A DNA stretch of 64,000 nt from the NCBI GenBank assembly GCA_009692425.1, contig SHZF01000010.1:1-64000 (forward strand). The letters run 5' to 3'. A program made the translations under genes and the position numbers. This DNA comes from Myxococcales bacterium. GTDB taxonomy: Bacteria > Myxococcota_A > UBA9042. A model generated the notes under the pieces. The model was not told the origin of the DNA. It did no database searches and saw nothing but the letters and a program-made list of their open reading frames with translations. Each line of letters starts with the position of its first letter. Position 1 is the first letter of the stretch. This document shows, in pieces, positions 6,809 to 46,752 of the stretch.

Positions 6809-7370
6809 CGACGGGAGTCTCCCTCGCCCGCTGCGCAAGCTAGAGGAGCGGGGCGTGGAGTGCAAGGATTCCACCTGTATGTCGTCAGCCGGTGGATTCT
6901 GGGCATCCTCACCCGCATGGCGCCTGCGGCCTTGACCCCTCCGCCCCTGCCAGCGACCCTGCCACCACTCCCCCACCGGCCCATCGCCGTGCGCCGGAGC
7001 CCCGTGCCGATGACCTTGCAGCCTCCGCCCATCCCGCCGACCTCGCTGCCATGCCCCCCTTTACGTTCGGCGTCCACCCCGGCGCGGAACTCGACATGGG
7101 CAATCCGCTCGGCCAGGGCGGCATGGGACTCGTGCGGCTGGCCGTGCAGGTGCCACTATAGCGCGATGCTGCCCGAGGTGCTGACCGGGCTCACGCGCCA
7201 TGACAAGCCGACCCGCGCCGCCGTGCTGATAGCCGCGCACCTGAGCGAGTCGTGCGCGCGATGGCGGTCATGGCTGCGGCGTTCTGGGCGTCGTCGGCCG
7301 GCGGCTGGATGGTGGGCACGGCGCCCGCGCAAGGGCTACCGGGATGCGCGCCAACTGGAGCGGGTGTGAC
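6809..7370. other. Degraded spacer between divergent lipoprotein genes
   Basis: A 562-base stretch between two divergently transcribed lipoprotein genes. It must hold both promoters, though none is convincing by eye. It contains a Ser/Thr-kinase-like fragment (listed separately). At 7271-7360 there is a short frame reading MAVMAAAFWASSAGGWMVG, which could be a single membrane segment. I see no intact gene. Confidence 0.5.
6892..7161 (+). pseudogene. N-terminal fragment of a eukaryote-like Ser/Thr protein kinase
   Basis: The 89-codon frame ends FGVHPGAELDMGNPLGQGG, then MGLVRLAVQVPL and a TAG at 7159-7161. GVHPG-x-ELD followed by PLGQGGMGLV is the typical run-in and glycine-rich ATP loop of the Hanks-type kinases abundant in Myxococcota. 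The kinase lysine, the HRD and DFG motifs and the rest of the fold are missing downstream in any frame. It is a relic after deletion. The first half of the frame is low-complexity Pro/Ala sequence and may not be coding. Confidence 0.45.
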
Positions 7371-10300
7371 ATGAAGGGTCCTCTTCAAAAACGTTGCGCG
7401 GCATGGGCTTGCCTGGTGGTCGGGCCCGCGGCATTCGCCGGCTGTGGCGACGCTGGCACGGCGCCTGGTCCCGACACCGGAACGGACGCGGCCGCCACAT
7501 CCGGCAGCGCTGGCGATGGTCTGGGGTTGGACGGCGCGCAAGAAGCCGACACGCCGCGCGCAGTGTTCGACGGCGGCGCCGACCTCGCAGGAGGCCCGGC
7601 TGACACGGGCCCCGGCTCCGACGCCCCTGCCGCAACGGATGCCGCGCCCTCGCCGTGTAATTTTGCGACCCCAGGTCCCGGCGCGTGTGGCAGCCCGTGC
7701 GCGGCCGACAACGAGTGCCTGGCCGGCTTTTGCGTGCCGACCCGATTCGAGCGCCTGTGCACGATGAACTGCTCGGCCGGGGCGTGCCCGATGGGGTGGG
7801 CGTGCAAGCAACTGTCGTCGGCGCCCGACACGATCTATGGCTGCGTGCCCGAGTCGCCCAACCTCGGCCGCCCGTGCCAGAGCGACCTCGACTGCGTGAC
7901 CGCGATCGGCCAGACCATCGTCGGCCTCGCTGACCTGTGCGTGCCGCGGGGAACGGAAGGCGCGTTCTGCGGAGCCGATTGTGGCGGCGGCAAGGAGTGT
8001 GCCAAGGGCTTCGCGTGCCAGTCGGTGGTGTCGCTCGGCGGCAAGTTGGCCAAGCAGTGCGTTGCCGCTGTGCTCGACGACAACTGCACTCCGCGCTTCG
8101 AGCAGGAGAAAGCCGAGGCTGTCTGCACGCGCAAGAACGAGGCCGGCGCCTGCAAGGGCAAGCGCCGCTGCGAAGGCAAGAAACTCGCCGCGTGCGACGG
8201 CAAGGAGCCCAAGCCCGAGGTCTGCAACGCCGACGACGACGACTGCGACGGCCAGTTCAACGAGTCGGTGGCGGGCGCCACGTGCAAGGTGCAAGGGGCT
8301 GAAGGCGCGTGCGCGGGCAAGCCCGTGTGCGACGGCGGCGTCGAGACGTGCGTGGGTCCCAAGCCAACGGCCGAGGCGTGCAACGGGGCGGACGACGACT
8401 GCGATGGCAAGACCGACGAGGGCTGTGACGACGACAGCGACGGCTACTGCGACGCCGCGATGGGCTACGACCCTGCCGCCGGCAAGCCCACGTGCGGCAA
8501 GGGCTCTGGCGACTGCGCGGACTTCGACGCCGGCGTACACCCCGGCCAGAAGGAGACCTGCAACGGAGCCGACGACAACTGCAATGGCAAGAAGGACGCC
8601 GACGACCCGCAGTTGACGCTCGATGACGCCCAGAAGTGCGACCAGCAGAGCGGGCCATGCGCGGGTGCCAAGAAGGGCGCCGAACTGTGCCAAGGCGGCA
8701 AGTGGCTGCCGTGCGCCGACCTCGACTACCAGAAGCACTTCGCCGCGTTTGCCAAGAGCGAGGTGTGCGACGACAAGGACAACGACTGCTCGGGCGTGGC
8801 CGACGACGGCTGCGACGACGACAAGGACGGATTCTGCGACAGCAAACTGGCGACCATCGGCTTCCCGCTCTCGTGCCCCAAGGGTGGCGGCGACTGCAAC
8901 GACGGCCTCAAGGATGCCAAGCCCGGTGCCGCCGAAGCGTGCGACGACCTCGACCAGAACTGCGACGGGGCAACGGACGAGGGCTGCGACAAGGACAAAG
9001 ACGGCTGGTGCGACAAGGACCTCAACGTGAGCGGCAAGCCCAAGGCCTGCGCGTCTGGCGGCGGCGACTGCGACGACCTCGACAAGAAGAAGCTGCCGGG
9101 CGCGACCGAGGCCTGCAACTTCGTAGACGACAACTGCAACGGCCAGACCGATGAGGCGTTCGTCGACCTCGGCAAGCCGTGCGCGGGTGGCGCGGGGGCG
9201 TGCGCGGCGGCGGGCACCACGGTGTGCGCACCCGACGGCAAAACGGCGGTGTGTTCGGCTACGGCACCTGCGCCGGGCATCGAAGCCTGCAACGGCCTCG
9301 ACGACGACTGCGACAGCAAGACCGACGAGGGCTGCGACGACGACAAGGACGGCTACTGCGACGTCGCACTGGCGGTGTTCGGCAAGCCGAAGGTTTGCCC
9401 GGGCGGAACTGGCGACTGCGACGACGCCGACTTCGACAGCAAGCCCGGCGCGCCCGAGTTGTGCAACGGCAAGGACGACGACTGCGACGGCAAGGTGGAC
9501 GCCAAGGACGGCGACCTCGCGTTCGAAGACCCGCAGCCGTGCGAGAAGCAGGCGGGCACTTGCAAGGGATCCAAGAAAGCGCCCGACCTGTGTCAGGGTG
9601 GCAAGTGGCTGGGGTGCGGGGCCATCGACTATGCCTTGTGGCATCCGTACTGGCAGTCGGCTGAACTGTGCGACAACCTCGACAACGACTGCAACGGCAA
9701 GGCCGACGAGGGTTGCGACGACGACGACGACGATTGGTGCAACGCCAAGATGGTGATGGTCGGCAACGTGAAGACGTGCCCCAAGGGCAGCGGCGACTGC
9801 AACGACGACTCGGCCGCAGTGTCTCCGTTCCACGAGGAGTACTGCGACGGCAAGGACAACGATTGCAACAGCAAGCCCGACGACGGTTGCGACAAGGACC
9901 AGGACAGCTACTGCGACATCGGCAAGACCGTGATCGGCTTGCCGCCCGTGTGCCCGAACGGGGGCGACGACTGCGACGACAAGGAGTTCAAGGTGAACCC
10001 GGGGCAGAAGGAAACGTGCGCCGACTTCCTTGACCAGAATTGCTCGGGCGCGGCGGACGAAGGCTGTGCGCCGACGACGCTCGGTTTCAGCGGCAAGCTG
10101 GGGCCCGACATGGCCTTGGAGGGCTACTTGCAGTGCGCCGGGTACTTCGACCAGCCGGGCGGCGACGATGTTCCGTTGGCGTTCGGCGCCGCGTGCCTCG
10201 ACCCGAAGTGGCAGAAGCTGCGCATCGCGTGCGGCCCGGCGCCCGACAAGGTGCGCTGGATCGCAGTGAAGAAGAACGTGTTTGCTACGGGGCTACAGTC

Positions 10301-10544
10301 GGGCGCCGAGGAGGGGCTCATCTTCGACAGCAACTTCGACCTCGGCGGCAACAACCTGGTCAAGGCCGACGCGCCCGGCAACCCGAACGCGGCACGCTCG
10401 TGGTGGGTGTCGGCTCTCGGGGGCTGCACGGAGACGTTTGCGGCGCTGACCGTGAACAACGGCAGTTGCGGCTGGGAGGCGGCGAATTGCTTTGGCTACG
10501 GGCTGACGGGGTCGCGGTATCTGTTCGTTTATGTGGGGAAGTAG
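7371..10544 (+). CDS. MopE-type metal-binding-repeat lipoprotein
   Basis: A 1057-residue lipoprotein. The ATG at 7371 (GGAG at 7357) gives a signal MKGPLQKRCAAWACLV... with lipobox AFAGC. After a ~60-residue Asp/Ala/Thr-rich linker and a Cys-rich region (residues ~85-250) come about 11 repeats of the type CNGADDDCDGKTDEGCDDD followed by DGYCD. Each combines a Cys-Asn/Asp core with an EF-hand-like D-x-D-x-D-G run. These are the repeats named after the copper-associated surface protein MopE of Methylococcus capsulatus; their Asp loops are more typical of calcium binding. The final ~150 residues (from GFSGKLGPDM) form a non-repeat C-terminal domain. Extracellular or surface-attached. Its neighbour at 11041 is a cytochrome lipoprotein, an arrangement recalling MopE and its cytochrome partner. 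Metal and partner are inference. Confidence 0.85.
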   Translation: MKGPLQKRCAAWACLVVGPAAFAGCGDAGTAPGPDTGTDAAATSGSAGDGLGLDGAQEADTPRAVFDGGADLAGGPADTGPGSDAPAATDAAPSPCNFATPGPGACGSPCAADNECLAGFCVPTRFERLCTMNCSAGACPMGWACKQLSSAPDTIYGCVPESPNLGRPCQSDLDCVTAIGQTIVGLADLCVPRGTEGAFCGADCGGGKECAKGFACQSVVSLGGKLAKQCVAAVLDDNCTPRFEQEKAEAVCTRKNEAGACKGKRRCEGKKLAACDGKEPKPEVCNADDDDCDGQFNESVAGATCKVQGAEGACAGKPVCDGGVETCVGPKPTAEACNGADDDCDGKTDEGCDDDSDGYCDAAMGYDPAAGKPTCGKGSGDCADFDAGVHPGQKETCNGADDNCNGKKDADDPQLTLDDAQKCDQQSGPCAGAKKGAELCQGGKWLPCADLDYQKHFAAFAKSEVCDDKDNDCSGVADDGCDDDKDGFCDSKLATIGFPLSCPKGGGDCNDGLKDAKPGAAEACDDLDQNCDGATDEGCDKDKDGWCDKDLNVSGKPKACASGGGDCDDLDKKKLPGATEACNFVDDNCNGQTDEAFVDLGKPCAGGAGACAAAGTTVCAPDGKTAVCSATAPAPGIEACNGLDDDCDSKTDEGCDDDKDGYCDVALAVFGKPKVCPGGTGDCDDADFDSKPGAPELCNGKDDDCDGKVDAKDGDLAFEDPQPCEKQAGTCKGSKKAPDLCQGGKWLGCGAIDYALWHPYWQSAELCDNLDNDCNGKADEGCDDDDDDWCNAKMVMVGNVKTCPKGSGDCNDDSAAVSPFHEEYCDGKDNDCNSKPDDGCDKDQDSYCDIGKTVIGLPPVCPNGGDDCDDKEFKVNPGQKETCADFLDQNCSGAADEGCAPTTLGFSGKLGPDMALEGYLQCAGYFDQPGGDDVPLAFGAACLDPKWQKLRIACGPAPDKVRWIAVKKNVFATGLQSGAEEGLIFDSNFDLGGNNLVKADAPGNPNAARSWWVSALGGCTETFAALTVNNGSCGWEAANCFGYGLTGSRYLFVYVGK

Positions 10545-10717: not shown

Positions 10718-10750
10718 GAACTGTGCCAAGGCGGCAAGTGGCTGCCGTGC
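10718..10750 (+). repeat. 33-base exact copy of an internal segment of the MopE-type gene
   Basis: Bases 10718-10750 are identical to 8682-8714 inside the MopE-type lipoprotein gene. Similarity extends a few bases on both sides with single mismatches. Translated in the matching frame it reads NGAELCQGGKWLPCPD, against KGAELCQGGKWLPCAD in the intact gene. It is a scrap left by duplication or recombination of that gene family, with no repeat array around it. Confidence 0.75.
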
Positions 10751-10757
10751 CCCGACC

Positions 10758-10816
10758 AAGTCGATCCTTTTGCCGTTGCCGGGAGTCGGCGTCAGCTGCG
10801 AGCTTGGCAACGCAGC
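10758..10816 (-). repeat. Degenerate dispersed repeat, copy A
   Basis: By hand alignment without gaps, 10758-10816 matches 45709-45767 at about 45 of 59 positions. Both copies begin at the same sharp boundary (AAGTCGATC on the plus strand). Read on the minus strand the two copies encode VAKLAADADSRQRQKDRL here and VAKFAAEADSRRRAGDRL there. Many differences fall at silent or conservative codon positions, which suggests a once-coding segment. This copy directly abuts the 33-base MopE-gene scrap. Confidence 0.55.
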
Positions 10817-10900
10817 AACGAAAACGGTGCCGGCTCAAGACCACGGGCATGACGAGTTGTTTGCGTCGGCGCCCAACCGACGTCGGCTCGCGCTGCCCCG

Positions 10901-44535: not shown

Positions 44536-45684
44536 TCAACGCTTGAACCAGTCGGCGGGGTCGACCGGCTGGCCGTTGTGGCGAATCTCGAAGTACAGGT
44601 AGCGGCCCTTGATGGAGCCGGATGCGCCGACGTCGGCCAACCGCTCGCGCGAGGCGATGATCTGGCCGACTTCGACGCGCACGGCTTCGAGGTGGGCATA
44701 GACCGTGTGCCAGCCGCGGCCATGGTCGAGGATCACGGTCTCGCCGTACCCCGTGAGCCAGCCGACATGCGCCACCCGGCCCCAGAACACCGCCCGCACC
44801 GCTGCGCCCGGCGCTCCCCACGAGCGATAGTCGAGCCCGCGGTGCAGCGTGGTCGTGCCGAATTTCGGGTGGCGTACATCGCCGAAGGCCACCTCGACGC
44901 GACCGGCAACCGGCGGCAGCAGCTTGCCCTGAACGAGCGCGAACGTGTACTTGCGCTCCTGCCATTCCTGCAACGTGGCGATGCGCGCAGTCAATTGGCG
45001 GTGCGCGGCATCCAGGTCGCGCACGGCGCTTTCGTGAAAGCGGCGGTCCTCTTCGATGCGCTGGACGAGCAGCACCTTGTCGCTGCGCTCCTGTTCGGCG
45101 CGCGCGCGCTCGGTGTGCAGGTCGAGGTCGAGCTTCTCCAAGCCCGCCAGCGCGACGTTGCGTTCGCGGGTGACGCGGTCGAGGTCGCGCAGGCGTTCGC
45201 GGTACTGTTGCAGGCGGGCGCGGTCTGCCACGAGCAGGCGGCGCAGCAGGCGGTCCTTGACCACGGATTCAGCGAAGTCCTTGGCTCCCAAGGCGAACCG
45301 CAGCGTGGGCCACTGGGCGATGCGCAACACGGCACGCAGCCGATCGCGCACGGCGGCCTGCAACACCCCGAGGTCGGCCGCCGCCTTGGCGCGGCGCATC
45401 TCGGTCTGGGTGAGCACATCGGCCGCGCGCGCCCGCTCGGCCCCTGCCCGCAGCAATCTGGTATCAAGATCGATGACGTCGCGATCGAGACGGTCGAGCG
45501 CTTCGAGCAGGCCAAGTTCGGTCTGCAGCACTTTTGCGTAGCGCGCCGCGACGTCGCCGGGCTCGGCTGCTGCTGCGGACCGTTCGCCACCTGAGATCAG
45601 CACGCCGACGAGCCAGGCGAACCGCAGCGCGACGAGCGCCGGCCACGCAGGCCCGCGGGCAACGGGCCGCCAACGCCACTGCAA
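44536..45684 (-). CDS. envC: EnvC-like murein hydrolase activator (coiled coil plus M23 domain)
   Basis: A 382-residue exported protein if translation starts at the TTG at 45684, which puts a signal (VALRFAWLVGVLISG, ending SAAAAEPG) at the N-terminus. The same frame is open to a GTG at 45843, but that extension includes the dispersed repeat and is doubted. A long coiled coil (residues ~50-230; RDRLRAVLRIAQ ... QYRERLRDLDRVTRERNVAL) precedes a LytM/M23 domain: VAFGDVRHPKFGTTTLHRGL, DYRSWGAPGAAVRAVFWGRV, VILDHGRGWHTVYAHLEAVR, YLYFEIRHNGQPVDPADW. The catalytic zinc His of true endopeptidases looks only partly kept, as in EnvC, which activates amidases. It follows ftsE-ftsX, exactly the partner complex that controls EnvC. 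Confidence 0.8.
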   Translation of the reverse strand: MQWRWRPVARGPAWPALVALRFAWLVGVLISGGERSAAAAEPGDVAARYAKVLQTELGLLEALDRLDRDVIDLDTRLLRAGAERARAADVLTQTEMRRAKAAADLGVLQAAVRDRLRAVLRIAQWPTLRFALGAKDFAESVVKDRLLRRLLVADRARLQQYRERLRDLDRVTRERNVALAGLEKLDLDLHTERARAEQERSDKVLLVQRIEEDRRFHESAVRDLDAAHRQLTARIATLQEWQERKYTFALVQGKLLPPVAGRVEVAFGDVRHPKFGTTTLHRGLDYRSWGAPGAAVRAVFWGRVAHVGWLTGYGETVILDHGRGWHTVYAHLEAVRVEVGQIIASRERLADVGASGSIKGRYLYFEIRHNGQPVDPADWFKR

Positions 45685-45708
45685 CGACGTCAGAGCCCGT
45701 GCAAAAAT

Positions 45709-45767
45709 AAGTCGATCGCCTGCGCGTCGCCGTGAGTCGGCTTCAGCCGCGAACTTGGCGACCCAAC
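45709..45767 (-). repeat. Degenerate dispersed repeat, copy B
   Basis: Matches 10758-10816 without gaps at about 45 of 59 positions, both copies starting at AAGTCGATC. Read on the minus strand it encodes VAKFAAEADSRRRAGDRL. It lies in the gap between the ftsX stop and the probable envC start. Here it happens to be in frame with envC, which is why the envC frame looks extended. Confidence 0.55.
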
Positions 45768-45849
45768 CTGCGACAAGGGACCGTGCCGAATCACTCTCAC
45801 GATCCAACTCGTAGAAAGGCAGTCGATTCGGTAATTCTTGCACGGGCCC

Positions 45850-46752
45850 TCACGTGCGCAGGTAGCGGCCGACGCTCAGCCCGCTGGCGACGAGTCCGAC
45901 CGCTGGCCCGCCCACGAAAAGCCAGACAACCATGCCAGGCGGCAACAGCGACCACGGCACGTTGAGCATGTAGACATCGCGCACGAGTCCGCGCAGTTCG
46001 AGGTGGAGCCCGCCGAGCAGCAAGGTCGCCAGCACGGCACCGCACAGCCCCTGCAGCACGCCCTCGACCAGAAACGGGATGCGGATGAATGTCGGCGTCG
46101 CCCCGACCAGTCCGAGGATGTCGATCTCGTCGCGCCGCGAGAACACGCTGAGCCGGATCGTCGAGAACACGAAGAACATTGCCGACGCCAACAGCACGAT
46201 CGACAGCACGAAGCCGATCGTCCGCGCAATCTCGACGCCCGCGAAAAGCAACCGCAACTTTTCTGCGCCAAATGCGACGTCTTCGACGGATTCGACCCCG
46301 TGCAGCGTCTTCGTCCACGCCACCAGCGCTTCGACATCGCCGCGGCTGGCCAGCTCGGCTTCGATCTCGACCTCGAGGACCGGCTGGCCGGGGATCGCGG
46401 CCTCGTCGAGCCCTTGCAACAGTTCCGGATCAAGCAGCTTGCGATTGCGCGCGCGGTCCTGCTCGCGGCTCAGCGCACGCACGGCCCGCACGCCATCGCG
46501 CCCGCGCACGCGTTGTTCGACCTGGGCCGCCACCGGCGGCGGCGTGCCGTCTTTCAGGTACACCTGCACTGTCAGCGATTGGCCAAGCTCGCGCAGCAGG
46601 CGGCTCGCATTGAACTGCACCATCGCGAACAGGCCGACGAGCGTGAGCGCCAGCGCAATCGTCAGCGCGCTCACCGCCGTCAGCCACGGCGATGCGCCCA
46701 CCAACAGCCAAGCCTGGCGCAACACGTACCGCAGGTGCGGTCCTCGTTTCAC
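45850..46752 (-). CDS. ftsX: Cell division membrane protein FtsX
   Basis: A 300-residue ABC-type membrane subunit without transport function; with FtsE it opens and closes the periplasmic activator EnvC during septal splitting. It has the FtsX order: N-terminal cytoplasmic amphipathic stretch, TM1 (WLTAVSALTIALALTLVGLF), a periplasmic loop (LGQSLTVQVYLKDGTPPPVA ... GVESVEDVAFG), then three TMs at the end (TIGFVLSIVLLASAMFFVFS, IRIPFLVEGVLQGLCGAVLA, SLLPPGMVVWLFVGGPAVGL) with the conserved RRDEIDILGLVGATPTFIR between them. The start ATG at 46752 overlaps the ftsE stop by 4 bases. Confidence 0.93.
   Translation of the reverse strand: MKRGPHLRYVLRQAWLLVGASPWLTAVSALTIALALTLVGLFAMVQFNASRLLRELGQSLTVQVYLKDGTPPPVAAQVEQRVRGRDGVRAVRALSREQDRARNRKLLDPELLQGLDEAAIPGQPVLEVEIEAELASRGDVEALVAWTKTLHGVESVEDVAFGAEKLRLLFAGVEIARTIGFVLSIVLLASAMFFVFSTIRLSVFSRRDEIDILGLVGATPTFIRIPFLVEGVLQGLCGAVLATLLLGGLHLELRGLVRDVYMLNVPWSLLPPGMVVWLFVGGPAVGLVASGLSVGRYLRT

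Follow-up and report, generated by a model that had tools for sequence, protein, structure and literature searches.

A repeat in the 64,000-nucleotide stretch of DNA analysed here (the window), which comes from an uncultured myxobacterium, is best explained as the conserved core of a non-autonomous MITE of the ISAzo13 type, a reading to which we give a probability of about 0.86. The complete element is short and lacks a transposase gene, is bounded by terminal inverted repeats (TIRs) that it shares with an IS, occurs in dispersed copies with 3-bp duplications, and has a corresponding empty site.

The repeated element and its copies

The first-pass annotation had drawn attention to positions 45709-45767 and 10758-10816, where 45 of 59 ungapped positions are equal, and had offered two origins for them: a protein-coding segment, or a short mobile piece that carries one. 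The match lies far above chance given the matches found across the genome, and the mobile-piece part of the proposal is supported by TIRs, 3-bp target duplications, a high copy number and the occurrence of the same TIRs in ISAzo13-family IS. The interval first marked does hold a real repeat, but it is merely the left-central part of a complete element that spans 45693-45849 (Table 1).

Many further copies were found by DNA and core-model searches of the genome, a Myxococcota MAG of 4.94 Mb in 137 contigs. A 101-bp query (45690-45790) matched at 41 places with E<=10 and at about 30 with E<1e-4; the full element gave 43 matches, a query covering 10740-10840 returned its own, overlapping set, and a covariance model of the core detected at least 31 copies at E<=0.01. 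When the copies are aligned they fall into two subfamilies, A, to which the 45693 site belongs and whose ends read GRGCCCGTGCAAAAAYAAGTCGATC ... CGATTCGGTAATTCTTGCACGGGCCC, and B, represented by the 10758 site, with ends GGACGGCGACAGAMACAAGTCGATC ... GTTGTTTTCGTCGGCGCCC. At the 45693 site the inverted arms (45687-45723 and 45819-45855) show 76% complementarity along 37 nt. Both strands of the element have a higher folding stability than shuffled sequence (z -4.0/-4.9). Several contigs of this genome (C22, C119, C87, C1 and C31 of G000) end in or near element copies, three of which have an identical core; the assembly may thus break where recent copies lie, so that copies are perhaps undercounted. 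Upstream of the subfamily B copy, the window encodes a protein that contains MopE-type metal-binding motifs in seven stretches (7344-10544).

Table 1. Features of the two element copies in the window and of the genes that flank the subfamily A copy.
Feature	Position	Strand	Remarks
ftsX, 300 aa	45850..46752	-	Pfam FtsX, FtsX_ECD; ends exactly at the element
envC-like M23 peptidase gene	44536..45684	-	start TTG at 45684, MQW... as in relative G001
Full element, probable subfamily A MITE	45693..45849	+	157 bp, non-coding; core near left end; copy alignment stops at these borders
Left terminal inverted repeat	45693..45721	+	GAGCCCGTGCAAAAATAAGTCGATCGCCT; 26/29 positions equal the end beside the ISAzo13 transposase remnant (G000:C99)
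Right terminal inverted repeat	45821..45849	-	minus strand GGGCCCGTGCAAGAATTACCGAATCGACT
Left copy of 3-bp target duplication, TCA	45690..45692	.	read from sequence
Right copy of duplication, TCA (ftsX stop TGA on minus strand)	45850..45852	.	
Conserved core hairpin, 49 positions (the segment first marked)	45723..45771	+	covariance-model match, pair covariation
Subfamily B copy, left end decayed	10757..10874	+	right TIR about 10856-10874, GTTGTTTGCGTCGGCGCCC
Core hairpin of subfamily B copy	10772..10820	+	covariance-model match (L055 1533-1581)

Target duplications and relationship to ISAzo13

Flanking triplets, which were assigned by hand from the alignments, are identical in 7 of the 15 two-ended copies of this genome, compared with a shuffled mean of 2.1 (p 0.0012), and differ in the other 8. 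When two copies from relatives (L125 and L126) and an intact IS (L143) are added, the triplets are identical in 10 of 18, with 3.0 expected. Three-bp duplications are what ISAzo13 generates (PMC10045372). On contig C99 of this genome a solo end, GGGCCCGTGCAAAAATGAGTCGATCGACT, directly adjoins the 3' end of a truncated transposase gene, a remnant that has lost its 5' part and matches DDE_Tnp_ISAZ013 at E 2.5e-96. Intact ISAzo13 transposases are present in two relatives (G013 and G020), and the intact ISAzo13 of G013 has the ends GGGACTGTGACAGAAC and GGGCCTGTGACAAAAAGAGTCGATCGACT with a TAA duplication on both sides. Related ends that start with GG, namely GGGCGTGCAGAT, GGGATTGCAGAT or GGACACGTCGAT, occur in several ISAzo13 elements from other Myxococcota and from annotated plasmids, and these elements carry TTA or TAA duplications; in other ISAzo13 elements examined, the ends could not be placed. 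The TIR shared with the C99 remnant, together with the similar terminal and subterminal sequence and the 3-bp duplication of the G013 IS, leads us to regard subfamily A as an ISAzo13-derived MITE.

The resemblance to ISAzo13 IS (DDE_Tnp_ISAZ013, PF07592; eukaryotic relative Zator) extends to the common terminal GGGCCCGTGCAA.../GGGCCTGTGACAA..., a subterminal AGTCGATCG and the 3-bp duplication. Unlike these IS, the MITE has 157 bp, no transposase gene and a core hairpin that the IS lack. An ISAzo13 transposase acting in trans would recognise the TIRs, and insertion would occur at a YTA/TNA-like triplet. No intact ISAzo13 was found in this genome or in the copy-rich G014, G017 and G021, assemblies that are fragmented MAGs and break at repeats. 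For families with ends such as GCTATAC... (G016, G017), the search tied no transposase to them and found no clear duplication.

Insertion at the ftsX stop codon

The element had been placed between ftsX and envC, and rightly so: the Pfam domains FtsX and Peptidase_M23 lie on either side of it. The search located FtsX in 13 further family genomes; its C-terminus falls at the same residue in all of them, and the element is absent after the ftsX stop in each. In most of the 13 the next gene seems to begin within a few bases of that stop, as in G001 (AAGGTGTAG GCG ATGCAATGG); the junction in this genome reads CGCACG TGA (157 bp) TGA CGTCG TTGCAGTGG. The common end of ftsX and the absence of the element from the relatives together locate the insertion exactly at the ftsX stop codon. 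As read from this junction, the element entered the stop codon itself and duplicated TGA, leaving FtsX intact. The envC frame had also been said to extend into the repeat. It does run on, but only incidentally, because the start codon that aligns with the relatives lies outside the element.

A conserved hairpin core

Pair covariation argues for a hairpin in the core. An alignment by MAFFT of 38 hand-picked cores contains 18 doubly changed cells where shuffling gives 5.4 (0/500), and 83 distinct model-aligned cores, an alignment fitted to the covariance model and hence leaning towards its structure, contain 48 where shuffling gives 12.1 (0/500) and slid controls give 0-10. When mutual information is computed without the structure, the same pairs come out on top (22-37, 9-50 and 21-38), and a pair in the internal loop, 13-46 (C-G 48, T-A 14), is added. 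The consensus of the outer stem is GTCGCC/GGCGAC, or GTTGCC/GGCAAC, GTCGGC/GCCGAC, GGAGC/GCGACC; in the internal loop YGAG stands opposite CGAR, with an unpaired T and TT; the inner stem is CGGCT/AGCCG, and the consensus also has a 3' CCCA. Neither folding energy nor the counts of G-U versus C-A give a clear difference between the strands, and we therefore make no claim as to which strand of the hairpin acts. Our best guess is that the core serves the propagation or mobility of the element rather than a host gene; candidate roles are a site bound by the transposase or a host factor, or the protection of excised DNA.

Distribution and variation of the ends

By the covariance model, the core occurs in 16 of 22 genomes of the family, this one included (15 of the 21 others), and in at least seven genera. 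Each of G014, G017 and G021 has at least 150 candidates; scoring covered the top 150 of each genome, which makes the core counts lower bounds. Among 14 genomes of other families, 1 gave a borderline match (E = 0.01) whose alignment looks unrelated. In a relaxed scan of genome contigs for the core pattern, the sole hits fell in two lake MAGs, SHZD01 (Myxococcales) and VGRO01 (Deltaproteobacteria), and viral contigs gave no match to the pattern.

From genus to genus the core changes less than the ends around it, which vary strongly: GGGACTGTAAATCAATAACTCGATC in G019, GGGGCTGGAAAACAATGACTTGA in G021, GGGCTCGTAAAACACCAACTCGATCG in G010 and GCTATACATCCCCGCATTGACTCGG in G016. The hairpin core, with its conserved internal-loop residues, has probably stayed with the element while the ends were exchanged.

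Two further arrangements were seen in relatives. Different subfamilies lie adjacent to or nested in one another in G017 and G014 (L126 3730-4075, L073 and L084), in one case with a TAA duplication on both sides. A contig of G017 (SHZD01000016.1, L128) holds on its minus strand, at about 7700-8000, a tandem array of half-core units of about 27 bp, GCGAGCTTAGCGACCCACCAAGCCAGT, among which whole cores recur at spacings of 54 and 108 bases.

Placement of copies at stop codons

At the right, core-distal end of the element, an inward-reading gene has its stop codon precisely on the border triplet in 13 of 19 copies of this genome, compared with 3 of 28 left ends that are flush with the stop of an inward gene (Fisher p 8e-5), and where the right end carries a reverse-stop triplet this lies in the best inward frame in 13 of 15 cases, with 1/3 expected (p 3e-5); the inward frames behind these counts were chosen by a codon-usage score trained on the window, not from curated annotation, the best of them sometimes scores slightly below the outward frame, and orthologue verification covers ftsX only. 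Flush stops also occur in other genera at different ends, with TAG directly before GAACTGTCCC, TGA before GGGTCTGTCC and TAG before GGCACCGACAG. Right-truncated copies on contigs C59, C13, C135, C80, C18 and C132 of G000 (L015, L016, L019, L020, L037 and L039) retain the left end and the core, and meet the stop codon of an opposite-strand gene after about 0-40 nt.

In a GC-rich, gene-dense genome, insertions may survive selection mainly at stop codons, and we propose that copies accumulate flush with gene ends because the duplication restores the stop at insertion. A YTA/TNA-like preference and selection against in-gene insertions could explain most of the placement. Oriented targeting of stop codons by the transposase itself finds no support in the ISAzo13 copies elsewhere, which are not confined to stop codons. 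Relative to the transposase gene those copies carry TTA in some cases and TAA in others, so that the transposase alone leaves the left/right bias unexplained. A search of the literature for ISAzo13 MITEs or for MITEs at stop codons found nothing specific.

Alternative explanations

Right ends that abut the stops of inward-reading genes in a biased orientation, a core steadier than the ends across genera, and truncated copies in which core and left end are retained next to a stop codon would also suit a module at the 3' end of genes that serves the host in RNA stability, processing or termination and is kept there by selection. We consider this unlikely, since a scan of the element for intrinsic terminators and promoters found none (there is no GC stem followed by a T run), an Rfam search gave no family that matches at the element, and relatives have no element at the same place behind ftsX; moreover, purifying selection together with target preference would likewise lead to a location at gene ends. 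The hairpin itself suggests another comparison. The core has a possible tandem G.A mismatch motif, extrahelical Ts and a 5' GGAG or GTCG tag, in which it resembles some REP sequences, so that it might be a single-stranded DNA hairpin of the REP kind, moved by a Y1 (RAYT/IS200-type) transposase, with the TIRs secondary. This is very improbable given that REPs lack the TIRs and 3-bp duplications of the copies, and that none of the 28 loci examined in these genomes, each with a Y1 transposase or an ISAzo13 element, has a convincing core. Y1 genes were located in 24 of 36 genomes, with no convincing core near those examined, and in this genome the Y1 gene lies between GTAG hairpins of its own. The latter gene, RAYT-like and on the minus strand (L189, G000:C111:3765-4097), forms with its GTAG-tagged hairpins GTAGCCCGGGATTGAAATCCCGGGCTACCGG a REP/RAYT-like system distinct from the element.

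That both copies are the relic of an exon-like stretch of some protein, as the peptide likeness had suggested, is hardly credible. The likeness of the two minus-strand peptides is real as a string, the VAK frame is open on the minus strand in most copies of this genome, and part of the differences are silent. However, in 21 copies of this genome differences from the consensus number 56/41/57 at codon positions 1/2/3 of the VAK frame, so that there is no third-position excess, and variable columns are spread without codon periodicity (13/17, 13/16 and 14/16). Copies in other genera differ by indels of 1-2 nt, which are not multiples of three, and what the core displays instead is covariation of pairs: several of the differences that had been taken as silent are stem changes in which the partner has changed too, as in GTCGCC/GGCGAC versus GTTGCC/GGCAAC. 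The core aligns with the ISAzo13 transposase gene no better than shuffled sequence does, and the part of the envC ORF inside the element contains no Pfam domain.

Relation to known systems and implications

The ISAzo13-derived MITE works like other MITEs and is set apart by exchanged ends around a constant core and by its biased placement at stops. MITEAba12 (PMC6382973), which is mobilised in trans, is likewise short and non-coding, has the TIRs of a resident IS family and shows duplications at part of its copies; in MITEAba12, however, the TIRs are best conserved, the centre is variable and no orientation preference was found, whereas here the centre is constant across genera, the ends vary and the orientation relative to genes is biased. 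REP/BIME sequences with their RAYT are also extragenic hairpin repeats near the 3' ends of genes, but the element described here has TIRs and target duplications, and no core was found near the RAYT genes examined. The bulged hairpin also brings to mind integron attC sites, which have conserved core-site boxes and lie in gene-cassette arrays; the copies studied here are dispersed and have TIRs.

In the CORE-SINEs of eukaryotes a central domain is kept while the parts recognised by the mobilising enzyme are exchanged. Our element is of the DNA-transposon type with TIRs and not a retroelement, and the likeness is a resemblance only. It is tempting to speculate that these MITEs form a long-lived bacterial superfamily, a counterpart of the CORE-SINEs, in which selection keeps the structured core as the functional part, the TIRs are swapped to suit different transposases, and the orientation at stop codons goes beyond chance and purifying selection; we hold this broader view tentatively and think it more doubtful than probable.

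The usual definition of a MITE rests on conserved ends with a passive centre between them. Here the pattern is the reverse across at least seven genera, with a constant, structured centre and ends that differ. For annotation, our findings serve as a warning that start codons of genes and short ORFs predicted within such elements are probably spurious, as in the case of envC. For the biology of these elements, they raise two testable questions: what a non-autonomous DNA element gains from a conserved hairpin in its interior, and how such an element can fill a gene-dense genome without breaking its genes.
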